Shown here piece by piece: positions 3,714-14,566 of a stretch of 14,566 nt of DNA. This DNA is from Candidatus Berkelbacteria bacterium (lineage in GTDB: Bacteria > Patescibacteriota > UBA1384 > JAHJRZ01), in the NCBI GenBank assembly GCA_026397195.1, contig JAPLVI010000087.1:1-14566 (forward strand). The letters run 5' to 3'. The translations under genes and the position numbers were made by a program. Position 1 is the stretch's first letter. Each line of letters starts with the position of its first letter. The notes below the pieces were generated by a model that saw nothing but the letters and a program-made list of their open reading frames with translations, had not been told where the DNA came from and searched no databases.

Positions 3714-5764
<2,051 letters not shown>

Positions 5765-5765
5765 T

Positions 5766-8477
5766 ATGCCAAAAACAGAAATAAAAAACGGCAATGGGGG
5801 AAATGATATTCGCTTTGTTGAAGCGGAGATGAAGCAATCTTATCTTGATTACGCAATGTCAGTCATTGTTTCTAGGGCTCTTCCTGATGTACGAGACGGT
5901 TTGAAACCAGCGCACCGCCGCGTTCTTTTTACGATGCATGAAATGGGGTTGAAAAGCACGGCCAAATTTAGGAAATGTGCCGCTATTGCCGGCACGGTGG
6001 TGGCTCATTATCATCCCCATGGGGATGTTGGAGTTTATGACACCCTGGTCCGATTGGCGCAGGATTTTAATATGCGTTATCCCTTGGTCAATGGTCAAGG
6101 CAATTTTGGTTCTCTCGACGGCGACGAGCCGGCAGCGATGAGGTACACCGAAGCCAAGATGAAGCGCATCGCCTCAACTCTTCTTTCTGATATTAATAAA
6201 AATACGGTCGATTTCGAACCAAACTATGATTCGACAAGGCAGGAGCCAAAAGTACTGCCCGCGCGTTTCCCAAACCTTTTAATCAACGGTACTGTTGGCA
6301 TTGCTGTGGGCATGGCAACTAACATCCCGCCGCATAACTTAGGGGAAGTAATTGATGCCACTGTTTATCTTTTGGCTCATCCCAACGCCGATGTTGAAGA
6401 TTTGATGAAGTATGTTCAAGGTCCTGACTTCCCTACCGGCGCCAATATTTATGATATTAAATCAATCTACGAGGCTTATGCTACGGGCAAGGGCAGTATT
6501 GTTATGCGCTCCAAGGCTTCGATTGAAGAGGGCAAACGCGGCGCTTTTCGTATTATTGTCACTGAAATACCTTATCAGGTGAATAAAGCCGGAATTTTAG
6601 AAAAAATTGCGGTTTTGGTTAAGAGTAAAAAATTAAAAGGAATTGCTGATATTCGTGATGAGACTGATCGCTCGGGTATAAGGATTGTAATTGAGCTTAA
6701 AAAGGATGCCTATCCGCGCAAAATTTTAAATCAGCTTTTCAAATTTACTCAATTGCAGGAGACTTTTCATGTTAATATGCTGGCGCTTGTAGATGGCTTG
6801 CAGCCCCAAGTTTTAACTCTTAAAGGAATCCTTTCTGAATTTATTAAACATCGACATGAGGTTATTGTTCGCCGCACCAAATTTGAACTAGAGAAAGCGC
6901 AAGCCCGACTTCATATTTTAGAGGGTTTGCGTATTGCGATTGACCACATAAACCAAGTCATTGCGACGATCAAAAAATCAGCTAATCGCGATGCAGCCAA
7001 AATTAATCTAACTAAAAAATTTAAACTATCAGAACTGCAAGCCGATGCCATTCTTGATATGCGGTTAGCACAACTTGCTGCCCTTGAACGAAAACAAATT
7101 GAGGATGAATATAAGGCGACTATTAAATTAATAAAAGAATTGAAGGCAATTCTCGCCTCGGAGAAAAAAATCAAAGAGGTTATTAAGCAGGAGCTTCTGG
7201 AAATTAAAGAAAAATACGCCGATGCCCGTCGTACCAAAGTCTATAAAAAGGCAGTTGATGAGTTGGGTACGGAGGACCTGGTGCCCAATGAACCGGTAAT
7301 TGTCAACATCACTAAATCGAATTACATCAAACGAATGCCTATTTCGACCTATAAATCCCAAGGTCGAGGCGGTAAAGGCGTAATTGGTATGGAGACCAAG
7401 GAAGAAGACAGAGTGGAGCATATTCTGGTCACTTATACCCACAATCCGATTCTTTTCTTTACTAATAAGGGCAGGGTTTTTGAAACTAAAGTTTATGAAA
7501 TTCCTGAAGCGACACGCCAGGCAAAGGGACAGGCGATTGTTAATATCTTAAATATCTCGCCCGAAGAGAAGGTGACGGCAGTCATCTCTCTGGCGGAAGA
7601 ATTGCACGCTAAATACTTATTAATGGCGACAAGTCAAGGAATAGTAAAAAAGACCAAGGCCTCCGAATATCAAAATGTCAGAAAATCAGGACTGGTTGCG
7701 GTTGGGCTTAAAGATAAGGACGAGCTGGTTTGGGTCAGGTCGACGACTGGTCAAGAAGAAGTTATTATTGTCACCGCCAATGGGCAATCCATTCGTTTTA
7801 AAGAGACAAATGTCAGGTCTATGGGTCGAAGTGCTTCTGGCGTGCGCGGCATCACTTTAAAAAAAGAAGATAAAGTGGTGGGTATGGATGTGATTGGCGC
7901 CGTTAACTTCGCCACAAAAAAAAGCGCCACCACCGCTAAGGCACTAGTGACAGAAAAAGGAATCGAGGAATCAGAAGCCCAAGCTCTTTTGGCTGAAACT
8001 AGGGAAGAACGCAAGGCCAAAAATTCCGATTTATTTATTACCACCGAAAATGGCTATGGCAAAAGAACAAGTCTCCCTCTATATAAAGTTCAGGGTAGGG
8101 GCGGTTCAGGTATTAAAACGGCTAAGGTGACTGATAAAACGGGTAAAATTGTGGCCACTAGAATAATACCAAGAACGGCCAAGGGTGATTTGATGATAAT
8201 TTCCAAAAAAGGGCAGACGATTAGAATTCCAATTTCTAGTGCGCCGCGGTTAGGCCGAGACACGCAGGGAGTCCGCCTAATGCGTTTGAATGCTGGAGAT
8301 GGTGTTGCTTCGGTTTCCTATCTGCCGCTGGTTGTAATTGAGGAAGCTAAGGCACCAAAGAAAGTAGAAAAAAAGAAACCGCAGAAACCTAAAGCTTCAA
8401 AACCAAGAAAAACAGCCAAAAGAACTCAAAAAATAGCTCCCAGAAAGAAAACTCCAAGAGGACGGGGAAAAAGATAA
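5766..8477 (+). CDS. gyrA: DNA gyrase subunit A, with long basic C-terminal tail
   Basis: GyrA is the DNA-cleaving and wrapping subunit of gyrase. Tyr127, in AAMRYTEA, is the catalytic tyrosine forming the covalent DNA link. The quinolone region reads [11 protein letters not shown]: Val88 stands at E. coli Ser83, and Asp92 matches Asp87. After the tower and coiled-coil domains, the C-terminal beta-pinwheel begins with a GyrA box at 532-538, Q-G-R-G-G-K-G (E. coli QRRGGKG), which supports gyrase rather than topoisomerase IV. A related QGRGGSG occurs in a later blade. A Lys/Ala/Glu-rich insertion at roughly 718-757 lies between blades. The last 42 residues or so (862-903) are very rich in Lys, Pro and Arg, whereas the E. 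coli tail is acidic. At 903 residues the length is normal. The gene is co-transcribed with gyrB (1-base gap), without a visible Shine-Dalgarno site. Confidence 0.96.
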
Positions 8478-8644: not shown

Positions 8645-10627
8645 ATGGCTGTTAAATTTTCCGAATTATCCAAAAAATTAAAGATGACTAACCTCGAGCT
8701 TCGCCGCGCGATTAAGAAGCTCGGTATTGATGTTCCTCCCCGTGCGGCGATGATTCGCAAAGAAATAGCGGAAAAAATACTTGATGGATTAGGCTATAAG
8801 AAAAAAGAAGCCAAAGTTAAAAAACCTAAAAAAGAAAAAGCTAAAAAAGGATTAAAAGAAGGGATGATTGAGCTTCCCAAAGTGATGACGGTTAGAGAAT
8901 TTGCCTCCATTATGAAAATTTCGGTCAGTGAAGTCATAACTTCACTTTTGAAAAACGGGCTGATGATTACTATCAATGAGAATATTGATTATGAAACAGC
9001 GGCGATTATTGCCAGCGATTTTGGGTTAGAAGCAGTCGCTGAAAAAGAGAAAGAAAAAGAATTACCCGAACAATATCTGGATAAAAAAGAAAATTTAACT
9101 CCTCGGTCTCCGGTTGTAGTCGTTATGGGACATGTTGACCACGGCAAAACAACACTTTTGGACAGCATCAGGAAAACAAAGGTAGTTGAGGGAGAATCCG
9201 GCGGAATCACCCAGCATATTGGCGCTTACCGGGTTTTGGTTAAAAGTAAAGACAAGAAAAAAGGCGAGCGATATGTTACTTTTCTTGATACTCCCGGGCA
9301 TGAAGCTTTTACTATGATGCGAGCTCACGGCGGACGCTTGGCCGATATTGCTATTTTGGTTGTGGCAGCTGATGACGGAGTAAGGCCACAAACAATTGAA
9401 GCGATTGACCACATTAAAGCATCCGGCGTGCCAGCGGTGGTGGCGATTAATAAAATTGATATGCCTGGAGCTGATCCGGAAAGAGTCAAAAAAGAACTAT
9501 CAGAGAATGGCTTGCCGGTTGAAGGTTGGGGAGGCAATACTCCCTCAGTCGCCGTTTCAGCCAAAAAAGGTGAACACATAGATGAATTATTGGAAGTTTT
9601 GCTTTTAGTAGTTGATATGAACGATCTTAAGGGTGATCCAACAGGCCTTGCGCGGGGGTTGGTAATCGAATCAAGGATGCACAAGGGTTCAGGTCCTCTG
9701 TCTTCGATTTTGATTCAAAAAGGGACATTAAGCCAGGGTGATATTCTGGTGGCGGGCGATGTCTGGGGTAAAATTAAGCGGATGGAAAATGAGCTTGGTG
9801 AAAAAATGAAAGAAGCTACTCCTTCGATGCCGGTAAGGATTTTGGGATTATCCGGCGTGGCCCGGTTTGGGGATCTCGCGCTTGAAATGAAAGATGAAAA
9901 AGGAGCTAAAGATATTATCAAAGAGCGGGAACGGGAAAAAGCTGCCAAAACGATCGGTGAGCTCGGCATGGCGGAAGCAGCTAAATCCATTCGTGAAGGT
10001 AAAGCCAAATCACTAAAGCTAATCATCAAAACTGATGTGGCTGGTTCTTTAAAAGCGATTAAAGATTCAGTTGTCGGACTTTCGACAAAGGATGTTAAGG
10101 TTGAGGTGGTTGGTCAAGGAGTAGGTGAGGTCTCGGTTTCAGATATTGAGCTTGCCCGTGCCTCCGATGCGGTGATTGTGGCTTTTAAAGTAGGGACAAA
10201 TTTATCCGCTAAAAGGCAGGCTTTACAGGAAAAAATAAAAATCTCAAGTTATGAAATTATTTATGAATTAATTGATGATATTGCGGCCGCGCTTGAAGGT
10301 TTACTTGAGCCGGAGATTATTGAAGAAGATACGGGCAAAGGAAGAATTCTTAAGATTTTTAAGCATCATCGCCGCGATAAAATTATTGGCGCAAAAATTA
10401 CTTCGGGTTATGTTTCAGTTGGAACTTTGGTGCGTATTAAACGCGAAGGTAAATTATTAGGTGAGGCGGAAATTAAAAATTTACAACAAGCGGAAAATAA
10501 AGCGGAAAAAGTTGAAGCGGGGAATGAATGCGGTCTAAATTTAGTCGGAGAAGTGGAAGCAAAAGAAGGCGACCGGCTTGAGTTCTATAAAAAAGTGGAG
10601 AAAGTAAGAAAGATTAAAAGAAGTTAA
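8645..10627 (+). CDS. infB: Translation initiation factor IF-2
   Basis: IF2 is the GTPase that brings initiator fMet-tRNA to the small ribosomal subunit and promotes subunit joining. At 660 residues it is compact (E. coli IF2 is 890) but has the full core. One IF2N-type module lies at about 4-52 and a second at about 78-130, joined by a Lys-rich linker. The G domain shows G1 GHVDHGKT (162-169), the switch I segment GGITQHIGAY, G3 DTPGH (215-219), G4 NKID (269-272) and G5 SAK (305-307). Domain II, the IF2 domain 3 and the C-terminal fMet-tRNA binding domain follow, ending near the natural end of the family. The shortening is in the N-terminal extension. The ATG has no Shine-Dalgarno site upstream. 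The usual nusA/rbfA neighbours are absent; the gene stands alone between gyrA and the minus-strand pyrB operon. Confidence 0.97.
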   Translation: MAVKFSELSKKLKMTNLELRRAIKKLGIDVPPRAAMIRKEIAEKILDGLGYKKKEAKVKKPKKEKAKKGLKEGMIELPKVMTVREFASIMKISVSEVITSLLKNGLMITINENIDYETAAIIASDFGLEAVAEKEKEKELPEQYLDKKENLTPRSPVVVVMGHVDHGKTTLLDSIRKTKVVEGESGGITQHIGAYRVLVKSKDKKKGERYVTFLDTPGHEAFTMMRAHGGRLADIAILVVAADDGVRPQTIEAIDHIKASGVPAVVAINKIDMPGADPERVKKELSENGLPVEGWGGNTPSVAVSAKKGEHIDELLEVLLLVVDMNDLKGDPTGLARGLVIESRMHKGSGPLSSILIQKGTLSQGDILVAGDVWGKIKRMENELGEKMKEATPSMPVRILGLSGVARFGDLALEMKDEKGAKDIIKEREREKAAKTIGELGMAEAAKSIREGKAKSLKLIIKTDVAGSLKAIKDSVVGLSTKDVKVEVVGQGVGEVSVSDIELARASDAVIVAFKVGTNLSAKRQALQEKIKISSYEIIYELIDDIAAALEGLLEPEIIEEDTGKGRILKIFKHHRRDKIIGAKITSGYVSVGTLVRIKREGKLLGEAEIKNLQQAENKAEKVEAGNECGLNLVGEVEAKEGDRLEFYKKVEKVRKIKRS

Positions 10628-10646
10628 ACTCTTATTTAAGGTGAGA

Positions 10647-10709
10647 CCCGCCGTCGCTCTTACTGTGCAACCTATTACATAGTGTACGCACAGTGCGAGC
10701 TTTGGCGGG
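10647..10709. other. Long interrupted hairpin downstream of infB
   Basis: Three stacked stems are separated by symmetric internal loops. CCCGCC (10647-10652) pairs with GGCGGG (10704-10709), then GCTC (10656-10659) with GAGC (10697-10700), then ACTGTGC (10662-10668) with GCACAGT (10688-10694). The 19-base apical loop holds a further CTAT-tac-ATAG mini-stem. The internal loops are 3x3 and 2x2. Only a weak T-rich stretch follows on the plus strand, so it may end infB transcription inefficiently or act as a structured RNA or protein-binding palindrome. No known RNA family was recognised. Confidence 0.5.
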
Positions 10710-10741
10710 TTAATCTCTTGTCGCAGCGCGCCAAATAGATT

Positions 10742-10800
10742 AAAAAAGGCGCTCTGAGACTGATTGCGGGGTGGTTCTTGCGAACCAGTCTCAGGGCGCC
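10742..10800 (-). terminator. Intrinsic terminator of the minus-strand pyrB operon
   Basis: On the minus strand a 15-bp stem (10786-10800 with 10748-10762, arms GGCGCCCTGAGACTG and CAGTCTCAGAGCGCC, one G-T pair) is followed by six T, opposite the A run at 10742-10747. An inner GGTTC-ttgc-GAACC hairpin (10772-10785) is an alternative fold. It lies 45 bases beyond the stop codon of the last gene of the operon. Confidence 0.85.
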
Positions 10801-10845
10801 CGTGGGGCTTGGTTGCGTGGGGTGATCGACGAGATCATCAGATTC

Positions 10846-11175
10846 TCACCAGGCGGTGTTTCTGGCATCCTTGCTTTGAAGATCACGGATCACCCCCCCG
10901 ATCTGGGCAGTGGCATACGGCGTACAGGTGGTTGTGGATACGCGAGACTCTCTGGCGGCGCGCTTGACTTTCGTCTTGTCGTGCTTGGGGAGATTGCCAT
11001 CGATCAGGACATGCTGCGCTTCTCCGCTCCTGATCTTCTGGCAGGCGTCATCACAGTCAGGGGCGTAGACAATCTCCCAGCAGTTACTGCATTCCTGTTC
11101 GATACGCATGGCGGCCGACGACCAGTCGGCTTCGCGGCCGACCACGAAGAGGGTAAGCTCCTGTCTCTTTCTCAT
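10846..11175 (-). CDS. Small receiver-like (CheY-fold-like) protein, third gene of pyrB operon
   Basis: This 109-residue protein is not a member of any family I can name with certainty. Its pattern suggests a receiver-like alpha/beta fold: a hydrophobic first strand LTLFVVG (7-13), a second strand EIVYAP, a central strand HVLIDGNLP whose Asp could match a phospho-acceptor site, and later a short strand and a helix IGGVIRDLQ. The paired acidic residues normally found after strand 1 are missing (GRE instead), so classical Mg-dependent phosphorylation is doubtful. The start ATG at 11175 follows AAGGAGG (11181-11187) with a 5-base spacer, and the gap to the upstream pyrB stop is 14 bases, so it is a real, co-transcribed gene. 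It resembles the first gene of the operon in length and strand pattern. A regulatory role towards ATCase is speculation. Confidence 0.7.
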   Translation of the reverse strand: MRKRQELTLFVVGREADWSSAAMRIEQECSNCWEIVYAPDCDDACQKIRSGEAQHVLIDGNLPKHDKTKVKRAARESRVSTTTCTPYATAQIGGVIRDLQSKDARNTAW

Positions 11176-11189
11176 TCAGGCCTCCTTGC

Positions 11190-12167
11190 TTAGTCGTCTT
11201 GCAGCAGCCGGTGGATGAGTGCCATGCGGAGCGGAACCCCATTGGCTGCCTGACGGAAGTAGGCGGCTTTCTTGCGCGTGTCGACGTCCGGGTCGAGTTC
11301 GTCCACCCGTGGAAGCGGGTGCATCAACAGGACATCGGGATTCACCTGCTCGATGAGCGTGTTGTTGACGCGGAACTTGGGCCGTTCCGCCTGTAGCTGC
11401 TCGAACAGGTCCGGCTGGCTGTCACGGAAGCGCTCTGCCTGAATGCGAGTGATGTAGGCCACGTCGACGCCCTCGAGTCCGGCCTTTAGGTCAGCGACGC
11501 AACCCTTGAAGCGGCAGCGCGTGCTGAGCCATTGGCAGAGTTCCTCTTGAGGCCAGAGCTTCTCTGGGGCGACGAAGGTCATCTCCACTCCCTCATAGTG
11601 CAAGGCGAGTAGCTTGGCGAGTGAGTGGATTGATCGAGCGAAGCGCGGGTCACCAAGGAAGGCAATCTTGAGGCCGTTGAAGTCGCGTGTCTTGAGTTCG
11701 CGTTCGAGCGTGAGTTGGTCGAGCCAGCCCTGGGTTGGATGCTCGTCGTCGCCGTTGCCGGCATTGACGAAAGGGATGTTCGAGGCCAGAGCGATCTCTC
11801 TCACCGCCTCAACGACAGGGCTGCGCACGACGAGGAAGTCGGTATAGGGCGAGACGATACGACCGGTGTCGGCATCGCTCTCGCCCTTGGCCTTGCTCGT
11901 TTGCTCGGCAGCCTCGAAGACGATGGCGGCATCCATGCCGAGGTTCATGGCCGCTCGGCGGAACGAAAGGGCGGTGCGGGAACTTGGCTCGTAGAAGAGC
12001 CCAATCATGTCAAGCCCCGTCAAGATGTCGAGTCGACGCGGCCGCGTAAGTTGCGGGACGACGAACTTCATGTGGTATTCGTGCGCCAAGTCGAGGACTT
12101 CTCGGGTTTGGTCCGGGTCTAGGTCCTCGACCGACAACAGCTTACGTCCGACGAGTGATGCTGCCAC
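11190..12167 (-). CDS. pyrB: Aspartate carbamoyltransferase, catalytic subunit
   Basis: ATCase condenses carbamoyl phosphate and aspartate to carbamoyl-aspartate, the committed step of pyrimidine synthesis in the cytoplasm. This 325-residue protein (E. coli PyrB has 311) keeps the active site. S62-S63-R64-T65 is the carbamoyl phosphate loop (STRT in E. coli). K94 lies in KAKGE, the loop donated by the neighbouring subunit. R115, H143 and Q146 (HPTQ), R178, R241-x-Q243 and H283-P284-L285-P286-R287 also match. The HPLPR motif, where ornithine enzymes have HCLP, marks it as ATCase. Departures are Ser for Thr at 63, Ala at the Arg after STRT, and one residue less in the K84 loop. The start is GTG (12165-12167) with AAAGGGAGG (12175-12183) upstream. 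No pyrI or other pyr gene is visible; instead it is flanked by two receiver-like genes. The sequence is GC-rich and probably acquired. Confidence 0.95.
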   Translation of the reverse strand: MAASLVGRKLLSVEDLDPDQTREVLDLAHEYHMKFVVPQLTRPRRLDILTGLDMIGLFYEPSSRTALSFRRAAMNLGMDAAIVFEAAEQTSKAKGESDADTGRIVSPYTDFLVVRSPVVEAVREIALASNIPFVNAGNGDDEHPTQGWLDQLTLERELKTRDFNGLKIAFLGDPRFARSIHSLAKLLALHYEGVEMTFVAPEKLWPQEELCQWLSTRCRFKGCVADLKAGLEGVDVAYITRIQAERFRDSQPDLFEQLQAERPKFRVNNTLIEQVNPDVLLMHPLPRVDELDPDVDTRKKAAYFRQAANGVPLRMALIHRLLQDD

Positions 12168-12170
12168 TGC

Positions 12171-12461
12171 CTAGCCTCCCTTTAGCTTGGCGAGGAGCGC
12201 CTTGACGTCGTCCTCTTCGGCCGGGTCGAGGGTGACGAACTCGGTCGTCTCCGCCCGGTCGCCCAGTGCCTCCATGACCAGCGCTTGGTCCGGTTCCGAG
12301 ACAGTTGTGTCGAAGACGATCATGGCGACGGGGTTCTTATTGACGAATTCCGCCGCTTCCTGGGCAGTATCGTACGTAGCTGAACTCCAGCTGGTTCGGT
12401 TGATCTTGGCCATTACGTCCTGGGACTTCTCCCTGTTTCCGACAACGACTACTCGTGGCAT
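12171..12461 (-). CDS. Small receiver-like (CheY-fold-like) protein, first gene of pyrB operon
   Basis: This 96-residue protein has the alternating pattern of a minimal response-regulator receiver or other Rossmann-like fold. A first strand RVVVVGN (3-9) leads to a helix, a short second strand and helix, a strand AMIVFDTTVSEPDQ with a central Asp near residue 51, then TEFVTLDP and a final amphipathic helix ending KALLAKLKGG. The acidic pair after strand 1 is replaced by Gly-Asn, so it is probably not a canonical phospho-receiver. No output domain is attached. The ATG at 12461 has AGAGGTGA (12466-12473) upstream with a 4-base spacer, and only 3 bases separate its TAG stop from the pyrB start. 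Translational coupling with ATCase is therefore likely. Whether it binds or regulates ATCase is unknown. Confidence 0.72.
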   Translation of the reverse strand: MPRVVVVGNREKSQDVMAKINRTSWSSATYDTAQEAAEFVNKNPVAMIVFDTTVSEPDQALVMEALGDRAETTEFVTLDPAEEDDVKALLAKLKGG

Positions 12462-12597: not shown

Positions 12598-13470
12598 ATG
12601 TTTGATAATTTTTTCCACTCCGTAACCGAATTGACCAAAATTGACTTTTTTTCTTTTTTTAAGAGAATCGAGGTTTCAGTCCAAAGCCTAGACGTAATGC
12701 ATAGTCCGCTGATTATTGTAGATATTTTGATTTCCGCCATTCTTTTATATTTCTTCCTCGTCTTCTTAAAAAAAATCCGGGTGCGCAATTTGCTACTTGG
12801 GGCAATCGTTTTAATCGGGCTTTATTTATTAGCTTATTTTTTAGATTTGGCACTTCTGTCATTTATCATTAAATATTTCGCTTTATTTTTGGTGGTGGTT
12901 GTGCCCTTTTTCCTCACTCCTTCAATGCGGCGGGCGCTCGATCGAATTGAAAGAGAAATAAAAGGCATCCACATTAAAGATATGAGCCGGAGGGATAGGG
13001 AAGGAGTGATTGAGGAAATTTCTCGTGCCATGGTTGTTCTTTCTAAAAAACGTGTTGGTTCACTTATTATTTTGGAGAATAAAGATTCTTTAACTAGATT
13101 TTTGCATACCGGAGAAAAAATAGAGGCCAAAGCAACTGCTGAATTTTTGACTTTTATTTTTTACCCCGGTTCAAATCTTCGAGGCGGCGGAACGATTATT
13201 CGTGGCGACGAAGTAATTGCTGCCGAATGCATTCTCCCCAAAACTAGACGTCATCTATATCTTGATCATATCAGCCCCAGAGATACGGCAGCAGTGGGTC
13301 TTTCTGAAATCACTGATGCCCTCTGTTTTGTTACTTCCAAAAAACGCGGTGATATTTCCGTCGCCCATGAGGGAAGTTATATTAATAATCTTGATGCCGA
13401 GAGAATACCATTTATTATTGAAACATTACTTGCCGGCAAAGCTGTCAGTAAAAAAATCGATATTAAATAA
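12598..13470 (+). CDS. cdaA: CdaA-like diadenylate cyclase family membrane protein with degenerate catalytic motifs
   Basis: The 290-residue protein has the CdaA/DacA layout: three hydrophobic segments near residues 38-56, 64-82 and 86-105, a linker helix, then a DAC domain at about 125-275. CdaA normally condenses two ATP into cyclic di-AMP, which controls potassium, osmolyte and cell-wall homeostasis. Conserved stretches are clear, such as AAVGLSEITDAL (231-242) and GDISVAHEG (251-259). Both signature motifs are changed, however. DGA reads G196-G197-G198 (context NLRGGGTII), losing the metal-binding aspartate. RHR reads R228-D229-T230 (context SPRDTAAVG). By family knowledge this should abolish or strongly alter cyclase activity. 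The downstream YbbR gene, 6 bases away, matches the usual cdaA-cdaR pairing. A 35-residue cytoplasmic start precedes the first membrane segment. The family is sure; c-di-AMP synthesis is doubtful. Confidence 0.88.
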   Translation: MFDNFFHSVTELTKIDFFSFFKRIEVSVQSLDVMHSPLIIVDILISAILLYFFLVFLKKIRVRNLLLGAIVLIGLYLLAYFLDLALLSFIIKYFALFLVVVVPFFLTPSMRRALDRIEREIKGIHIKDMSRRDREGVIEEISRAMVVLSKKRVGSLIILENKDSLTRFLHTGEKIEAKATAEFLTFIFYPGSNLRGGGTIIRGDEVIAAECILPKTRRHLYLDHISPRDTAAVGLSEITDALCFVTSKKRGDISVAHEGSYINNLDAERIPFIIETLLAGKAVSKKIDIK

Positions 13471-13476
13471 TTAATT

Positions 13477-14566
13477 ATGTTTAAGTATTGGTATTTAAAA
13501 CTATTAGCCCTTGTTCTTGCCATTCTTTTGTGGTTTGTCGCTTGGGGGCTGGCCTCAAGTGCCAAAGATATTAAAGGGGTGCCGATTAAAGTCAAAAATT
13601 TGCGTCCAAATCTGGCTTATGCTTCGGATGTTTATGAAGTTGACCTAAAAGTCGTGGCCAAAAAAGATAAACTAAATGATTTGGAAGCAGAGGATTTTGA
13701 AGCGACTCTTGACATGATGTATTGGGAAAAGGGGACATATAACCAAAAAATCGAAATTTCCGCCAAAGGCGGATCCGCCTCTGGCGGAAAAAGCCTAGAA
13801 GGTGTTGAAGTAATCTCAATAACCCCTGATAATTTAGTTGTACGGATTGAAGATAAAACGGAAAAAGAGGTCAGAATTGAGGGAGTTTTTGAGGGCATCC
13901 CAGCTAAAGATTATCTAGTGGGAAGTTCTAAAATTGAGCCCGAAAAGGTCAAAGCAATTGGACCAAAAAGTGAGATTGATAGTCTAAATAAAGCAACCAT
14001 ACGCATTAAACTGAATGGGGAAAAAGATAGTTTTGTGCGCGACATTGAAATAGAAGCAATCGATTCCCAAGGCAGGAAAATTCGTTCCATTTCCTTTGAG
14101 CCCAAGCTCGCCAAAGTAAATGTCTATATTTTTTCTGGTTCGAATAATAAAGCGGTTGGGATTAAACCAAAAATTTCCGGGATTCCTTTGGCTGGTTTTT
14201 GGGTTTCGGACGTCACCACCGACCCTGCCACGATTATTATCAACAGCGATACGTTGAAATTATCATCAATTGACTCGGTCGAGACCTCCCTTTATGACAT
14301 CACCGGTCTTAAAGAAAACAAAGAAGATACAGTTGCCCTTGTTTTTCCGTCGGGGGTGGCCTCGGTGGAAAATATCAAAGAGGTCAAAATCCGCATTGAA
14401 CTATCTTCAATTGAGATGACACGAGAAATGTATGGCTCGGTAGTCTTTAAAAACACTCCAGCTGGCCACCGCGTAACACGAACTAATCCTGATACGATTC
14501 GCGTCGTTGTCTCGGGCCCCTTGAGTCTTACTCGCACCCTTACTTCTTCCAATGTTGTGATTGAAA
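13477..14566 (+). CDS. YbbR-domain (CdaR-like) protein, truncated by window end
   Basis: The frame starts at ATG 13477, 6 bases after the cdaA-like gene, and stays open to the window end (363 residues visible). A membrane anchor at residues 5-27 is followed by extracytoplasmic beta-rich sequence with successive YbbR-type repeats, about one per 85-95 residues; typical segments are SLEGVEVISITPDNLVVRIE, FEGIPAKDYLVGSSKIEPEK and VFKNTPAGHRVTRTNPDTIR. In Firmicutes, CdaR has this architecture, sits next to cdaA and modulates the cyclase from outside the membrane; glmM often follows, but that region is not in the window. Residues 95-104 (SAKGGSASGG) are encoded by a 30-base double palindrome that looks like an in-frame repeat insertion. 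There is no Shine-Dalgarno site; it is probably coupled to cdaA. Confidence 0.88.
   Translation, partial: MFKYWYLKLLALVLAILLWFVAWGLASSAKDIKGVPIKVKNLRPNLAYASDVYEVDLKVVAKKDKLNDLEAEDFEATLDMMYWEKGTYNQKIEISAKGGSASGGKSLEGVEVISITPDNLVVRIEDKTEKEVRIEGVFEGIPAKDYLVGSSKIEPEKVKAIGPKSEIDSLNKATIRIKLNGEKDSFVRDIEIEAIDSQGRKIRSISFEPKLAKVNVYIFSGSNNKAVGIKPKISGIPLAGFWVSDVTTDPATIIINSDTLKLSSIDSVETSLYDITGLKENKEDTVALVFPSGVASVENIKEVKIRIELSSIEMTREMYGSVVFKNTPAGHRVTRTNPDTIRVVVSGPLSLTRTLTSSNVVIE
13757..13790. repeat. Double palindromic repeat inserted in frame in the YbbR gene
   Basis: Two adjacent hairpins, TCCGCC-aaa-GGCGGA (13759-13773) and TCCGCC-tct-GGCGGA (13774-13788), together with flanking bases form a 34-base near-perfect palindrome from TTTCCGCC to GGCGGAAA. 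It occupies exactly ten codons and adds the low-complexity peptide SAKGGSASGG. It is GC-rich in an AT-rich gene. Similar TCCGCC/GGCGGA palindromes are, from memory, frequent in Parcubacteria genomes. Confidence 0.75.

Follow-up and report, generated by a model that had tools for sequence, protein, structure and literature searches.

A CdaA-type protein without its catalytic motifs, kept beside YbbR in Candidatus Berkelbacteria

The diadenylate cyclases that make c-di-AMP are regarded as essential, and YbbR has been proposed to regulate them. DisA and CdaS are not known to have the CdaA-type membrane domain, and DisA, CdaS and CdaM all keep the DGA and RHR motifs of the diadenylate cyclase (DAC) domain. 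Pseudo-enzymes as such are well known. In open-licence PMC full text we found no paper on diadenylate cyclase in Patescibacteria. Among the open-licence papers covered, none was seen to describe a pseudo-DAC or a CdaA lacking its DAC domain, and those on c-di-AMP in Patescibacteria or the Candidate Phyla Radiation appear to deal with other matters. Here we describe a CdaA-type gene on a contig of 14,566 nucleotides from a Candidatus Berkelbacteria bacterium (the window). The window protein is P0001 and its genome G000; the sister genome G001 belongs to the same family, f1. The features of the gene are:

12598..13470, + strand: pseudo-CdaA gene, 290 aa, CdaA-type membrane domain and DAC fold without catalytic motifs
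12709..12915, + strand: three predicted transmembrane helices, residues 38-106 (AlphaFold2 secondary structure; homology to the f15 and f69 membrane domains)
12979..13440, + strand: DAC fold, residues 128-281
13180..13191, + strand: HDGA site, here RGGG, residues 195-198
13279..13287, + strand: RHR site, here RDT, residues 228-230
13336..13344, + strand: SEE site, here SKK, residues 247-249, the third lost motif

The DAC domain is clearly present in the window protein (PF02457, 82.1 bits; cut-off 27). Its score of 147 bits against the TIGR00159 equivalog is under the cut-off of 188.8, and the canonical class member L004 reaches 233.6 bits. AlphaFold2 predicts helices at 38-58, 62-82 and 85-106 (pLDDT there about 63-81), while the family profile search gave no match to PF19293 (CdaA_N). 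The protein thus combines the DAC fold and the three N-terminal helices of a CdaA with the loss of DGA and RHR. The original prediction had read DGA as GGG and RHR as RDT within a well-conserved DAC fold; both changes are there, the predicted fold is intact, and the change of SEE to SKK is a further loss that it did not contain. HDGA has lost its H and D, RHR its H and second R, and SEE its two E; neither metal binding nor positioning of ATP would therefore be expected, and the protein would make no c-di-AMP. Judged by its motifs, loss of catalysis in this CdaA-type protein is strongly supported.

The gene lies in the following surroundings, where the names gyrB, gyrA and infB are our assumption:

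3815..5764, + strand: ORF which we take to be gyrB, ancestral neighbour (same position in relatives)
5766..8477, + strand: ORF which we take to be gyrA, ancestral neighbour (synteny)
8645..10627, + strand: ORF which we take to be infB, ancestral upstream neighbour of cdaA in the class (synteny; tree)
10640..12461, - strand: high-GC stretch between infB and cdaA (GC 0.55-0.61 vs 0.35-0.41 around it)
11190-12167, - strand: aspartate-carbamoyltransferase-like gene (TIGR00670, 238.7 bits; cut-off 236.95)
13477..14565, + strand: ybbR, 6 bp after cdaA and open at the window end (PF07949, 69 bits, two matched stretches)

The order gyrB-gyrA-infB-cdaA-ybbR recurs in the class. In 16 of the 19 canonical loci read, infB, cdaA and ybbR are successive, twice with other ORFs between them, and the remaining three loci are cut by contig ends. 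The window keeps this order, including the cdaA-ybbR gene pair, with a foreign-looking stretch between infB and cdaA. Due to its place at the ancestral locus, the window gene is orthologous to CdaA rather than an extra copy; as far as synteny and motifs tell, it is the lineage's resident CdaA, inactivated in place. With PF02457, no second DAC gene was found in G000 (79.5% complete) or in G001 (93% complete). The stretch at 10640-12461 (1.8 kb), which also bears two small ORFs without a family, is either a foreign insertion or an assembly join; in G001 a minus-strand ORF without detectable similarity to it lies upstream of cdaA. An Rfam scan of the window gave no matches, and we put no weight on the promoter-like sites that a promoter and terminator scan placed near cdaA. 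The window also holds two L,D-transpeptidase-like genes.

A protein search over 5.8 billion proteins returned 36 matches, 17 of them (P0002-P0018) close relatives at 53-90% identity. Together with P0001 these form group 1 (18 entries), of which 17 are readable at HDGA and RHR; P0018 ends before the motifs and was left out of the motif counts, P0014 lacks the SEE region, and the alignment A2 omits P0012, P0014 and P0018. None of the 17 readable entries keeps HDGA or RHR. The aspartate position of HDGA holds G, E, Q, T, M, S or K, and the second position of RHR is D throughout (17/17). In the 15 aligned sequences, positions 196, 230, 248 and 249 carry 6, 6, 5 and 8 residue types, compared with a domain mean of 2.59 per position. 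G197, D229, S247, R250 and G251 are invariant, as is L213 (15/15), and R228 occurs in 13/15. Among the matches listed, all 117 other homologues keep H-D and R-H; these were selected by similarity to the pseudo-DACs and are no random sample. Family sizes are lower bounds, because relatives were drawn from roughly 8000 candidates sharing most words. Between G000 and G001, dN/dS (NG86) is 0.090 for the whole gene and 0.112 for the DAC half, a value from just two DNA sequences of one genome pair with dS of 1.3-1.4, near saturation. The low dN/dS together with the drifting active-site columns indicates that the gene is maintained while its active site drifts. The view that GGG and RDT mark a pseudo-enzyme and not simple decay is therefore upheld: against CPR relatives the loss of all three motifs is lineage-wide, with drift at those columns, an intact predicted fold and, from one pair, purifying selection (dN/dS ~0.09). 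Catalytic residues are gone across an orthologous clade that this pair suggests is selectively maintained. Several of these proteins bear the source name 'diadenylate cyclase'.

Pseudo-DACs are not limited to this lineage. Group 2 has at least 48 members, one of them named as candidate division Kazan, and all 48 are pseudo-DACs, with source names of hypothetical protein or diadenylate cyclase. The aspartate position is K or R in 33 of 47 group-2 sequences (P0115 omitted from the column counts), and the RHR region is mostly TNP or similar. The predicted DAC fold is intact in this group as well as in group 1. The gene tree parts the two groups, yet a single origin of all pseudo-DACs as one clade stands in the AU test (p 0.325; 0.407 with f4 included), so we do not claim independent origins of groups 1 and 2 as proven. 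In a phylum sample of 379 genomes, HDGA and R-H are kept in all 44 high-scoring DACs and lost in 12 of 13 low-scoring ones. The exception, from G152, was dropped from the pseudo-DAC count: in spite of its low score it keeps DGA and SEE, with RHM. This protein (L038:3501-4073, family f88) is a soluble DAC of 191 aa with DFDGA, ARHM and SEETG and without a CdaA-type membrane part. Another DAC of the phylum, L096 from G069, has HDGA and RHK, with SGK replacing SEE.

Family f4 is related to f1. An infB tree built by a quick method joins the two as sisters (SH-aLRT 96) with f15 standing apart, although one clade of f1, f4 and f15 is compatible with the data (p 0.527). In G004, of family f4, infB is followed by a pseudo-DAC of only 231 aa and by a HEAT-repeat protein resembling that which comes after ybbR in G001. 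The DAC gene tree, in which the f4 branch is very long, did not place f4 with group 1. From the sister placement by infB and the shared locus features, f1 and f4 probably share one loss. No YbbR match was found in the G004 genome, which keeps the shorter pseudo-DAC, and its relative G018 has neither a YbbR nor a pseudo-DAC match. The HEAT-repeat match (L047:2923-3993, after ybbR in G001; L067:7786-8835, after the pseudo-DAC in G004) is limited to these two among the class loci read.

Two further families have done away with the DAC domain. Family f15 has YbbR in seven of eight genomes and no DAC match; in these seven the CdaA membrane domain is fused to YbbR in one ORF of 483-525 aa, which adjoins infB in 7/7, three with other ORFs between. 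The first 115 residues of this ORF align with the membrane domain of the canonical L004, residues 10-110 (hhalign 96.8%, E 2.8e-10), and the alignment ends where the DAC part begins. None of the five fusions scanned reached the PF19293 cut-off of 23.8 (best 11.7 bits, L045), and the case for homology is made by profile comparison together with synteny. In a control with this membrane-domain profile, single canonical and group-1 CdaAs scored 33.2-55.9, group-2 proteins 16.3-33.1 and 12 non-CdaA membrane ORFs no more than 17.0, so that the group-2 protein L032 (16.3) falls under the best unrelated membrane ORF (17.0); the f4 protein scored 10.5 and a fragment 7.0. In f69 (three genomes), the CdaA membrane domain stands alone as a protein of 131-151 aa (PF19293 25.1-25.9 vs the cut-off of 23.8). 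Its end overlaps the start of ybbR in 3/3, which leaves no room for a DAC domain. The gene after ybbR in one of these genomes (L068:4876-5895) is potassium-channel-like with TrkA_N and TrkA_C, though the cyclase domain is absent, and a 340-aa ORF of similar sequence lies at the same place in L069 and L070. Elsewhere among bacteria, TrkA_C is a c-di-AMP-binding domain.

YbbR occurs in 28 of 55 class genomes and in 54 of the 379 phylum-sample genomes, 47 of the latter with a DAC gene, four of f15 and three of f69. The seven without a DAC match all have the CdaA membrane domain, four fused and three separate. Thus all 54 are accounted for, and in the sample YbbR was always accompanied by a DAC gene or a CdaA membrane domain. 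Its frequency is hardly higher with pseudo-DACs (11/12) than with other DACs (36/45). In three phylum relatives read (G102, G158 and G163), YbbR lies away from the canonical cdaA, so the pair is not strictly linked. Loci with this arrangement are L071, L073 and L074, in families f65 and f90.

We propose that the resident CdaA was inactivated in place and is kept as the membrane partner of YbbR in a role independent of c-di-AMP, and we give this reading a probability of about 60%. Membrane insertion and a DAC fold are both still predicted for the protein. It would owe its retention to a unit, made up of the CdaA membrane domain and YbbR, whose envelope role needs no c-di-AMP; the persistence of membrane domain and YbbR where the DAC domain is gone suggests as much. 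The retained portion would be the part that binds YbbR. Such an interaction is indicated in Firmicutes by two-hybrid work, according to the excerpt available (PMC6368335); the evidence here is genomic association. The dead DAC domain would at most provide a platform in the cytoplasm for dimerising or docking, and related families have cut it away. In the B. subtilis CdaA crystal dimer, an excerpt of the report names Leu150, Lys153, Asn161 and Leu169 as hydrogen-bonding positions (PMC8573169). Mapped to the window protein by a constant offset of 25, these positions hold I/M, K, Y/N/F and L/F in group 1. K178 is present in 15/15, I175 and L194 are nearly invariant, and position 186 is Y in most. 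The contacts K178, I175 and L194 support a platform in group 1, while group 2 rarely has the lysine (K in 4/47). From the motifs, the predicted fold, selection in one genome pair, the locus and the co-occurrence we infer that the protein is inactive, that it binds YbbR and that the pair has such a function. The main counter-evidence is the f4 pseudo-DAC without YbbR and the three relatives with YbbR apart from a canonical cdaA. Of the roles that the original prediction had offered, the membrane partner of YbbR has most support, from the two families that keep only the membrane domain with YbbR, and a sensor or an enzyme with another product found no clear support.

Since the f4 pseudo-DAC occurs without YbbR, decay is a rival to partnership with YbbR. 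If c-di-AMP signalling were useless in these reduced genomes, the gene would be slowly lost, with the membrane domain and YbbR merely not yet gone. The shortened f4 protein, its relative G018 with nothing left, the 32 of 55 class genomes without a DAC match and the two families without the domain would all fit such a course. Nevertheless, we consider it unlikely, because dN/dS is about 0.09-0.11, the 15 aligned group-1 proteins, whose identity to P0001 goes as low as 53%, all have open frames and have 83 invariant columns in common, 46 of the 48 group-2 proteins measure 273-303 aa (the other two being shorter pieces), and the predicted fold is intact in both groups.

The residues that have become constrained where the active site was (D229 and R250 in 15/15, R228 in 13/15), together with the retained G197 and L213, could be read as those of a sensor whose altered pocket binds c-di-AMP or another nucleotide, perhaps from a host, and passes a signal across the membrane to YbbR. 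We regard this as rather improbable. Tyr187 of Listeria CdaA, described in the excerpt available as stacking on adenine, is replaced by I, M or L in group 1, although other CdaAs vary there too; the T of GTRHR has given way to P, Q or V; group 2 keeps the places of R203 and E223 in 0/47 and of H204 in 1/47; and f15 and f69 do without the DAC domain altogether. The invariant acidic D229 and G197 might also belong to a rebuilt site of an active cyclase or nucleotidyltransferase, and some pseudo-enzymes may, in the part of that report available, have migrated residues (PMC10211241). This is very improbable, as the place of the metal-site aspartate varies among G, E, Q, T, S and K in the aligned group-1 set of 15, most of group 2 has K or R there, and positions 248-249 show no fixed acidic residue. 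Finally, G000 is a metagenome assembly in 183 contigs and the gene adjoins a high-GC stretch, which could raise suspicion of a sequencing or assembly error; the agreement of 17/17 readable group-1 entries from several sources refutes this and leaves it a negligible chance.

Neither c-di-AMP receptors nor phosphodiesterases were of use as a test of lost signalling. The ydaO riboswitch RF00379 was found in 0/55 class genomes and TrkA_C in 5/55, with none in G000 or G001, and neither parts genomes with live cyclases from those with dead ones. DHH phosphodiesterases occur at least once in 53/55 and are uninformative, because several kinds of enzyme share the DHH domain. A GlmM scaffold as partner looks unlikely: no match to the GlmM family (TIGR01455) was found in G000 (79.5% complete) or G001 (93%), both incomplete. 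A TIGR01455 match occurs in 46/55 class genomes, only one above the glmM cut-off, and the nine without it include G005 and G028, which have canonical DACs. In group 1 the residue corresponding to Arg126, which contacts GlmM, is an invariant lysine, K151. The lack of a GlmM/phosphohexomutase match in the f1 genomes raises the question of their source of UDP-GlcNAc.

We tentatively suggest, with somewhat more doubt than confidence, that in Patescibacteria the CdaA membrane domain works with YbbR as an envelope module independent of signalling, to which the cyclase is a dispensable appendage. On this view two or more lineages lost catalysis, and removal of the DAC domain took at least two forms, fused and separate, with the membrane domain left beside YbbR in each case. 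If so, the ancestral function of CdaA-YbbR would be other than making c-di-AMP. A natural series runs from active through dead to removed cyclase domains while YbbR is kept, and it makes a CdaA-YbbR role without c-di-AMP directly testable. The annotation 'diadenylate cyclase' cannot serve as evidence of c-di-AMP in these bacteria.

Compared with CdaA/DacA (TIGR00159; B. subtilis CdaA, S. aureus DacA), the window protein shares the three predicted N-terminal helices, the DAC fold and a gene directly before ybbR at the ancestral locus of the canonical CdaA of its class. It differs by the loss of HDGA, RHR and SEE and by a TIGR00159 score below the equivalog cut-off, and in the sister genome ybbR is followed by the HEAT-repeat protein and not by glmM. 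The group-2 pseudo-DACs resemble it in their CdaA architecture, in the loss of HDGA and RHR and in adjoining YbbR in nine loci read, but have other residues at these sites and form their own clade in the gene tree. With respect to YbbR/CdaR, the partner gene is kept beside the pseudo-cyclase in the window, the f15 YbbR bears the CdaA membrane domain in one chain, and the f69 YbbR follows a CdaA membrane domain that stands alone.
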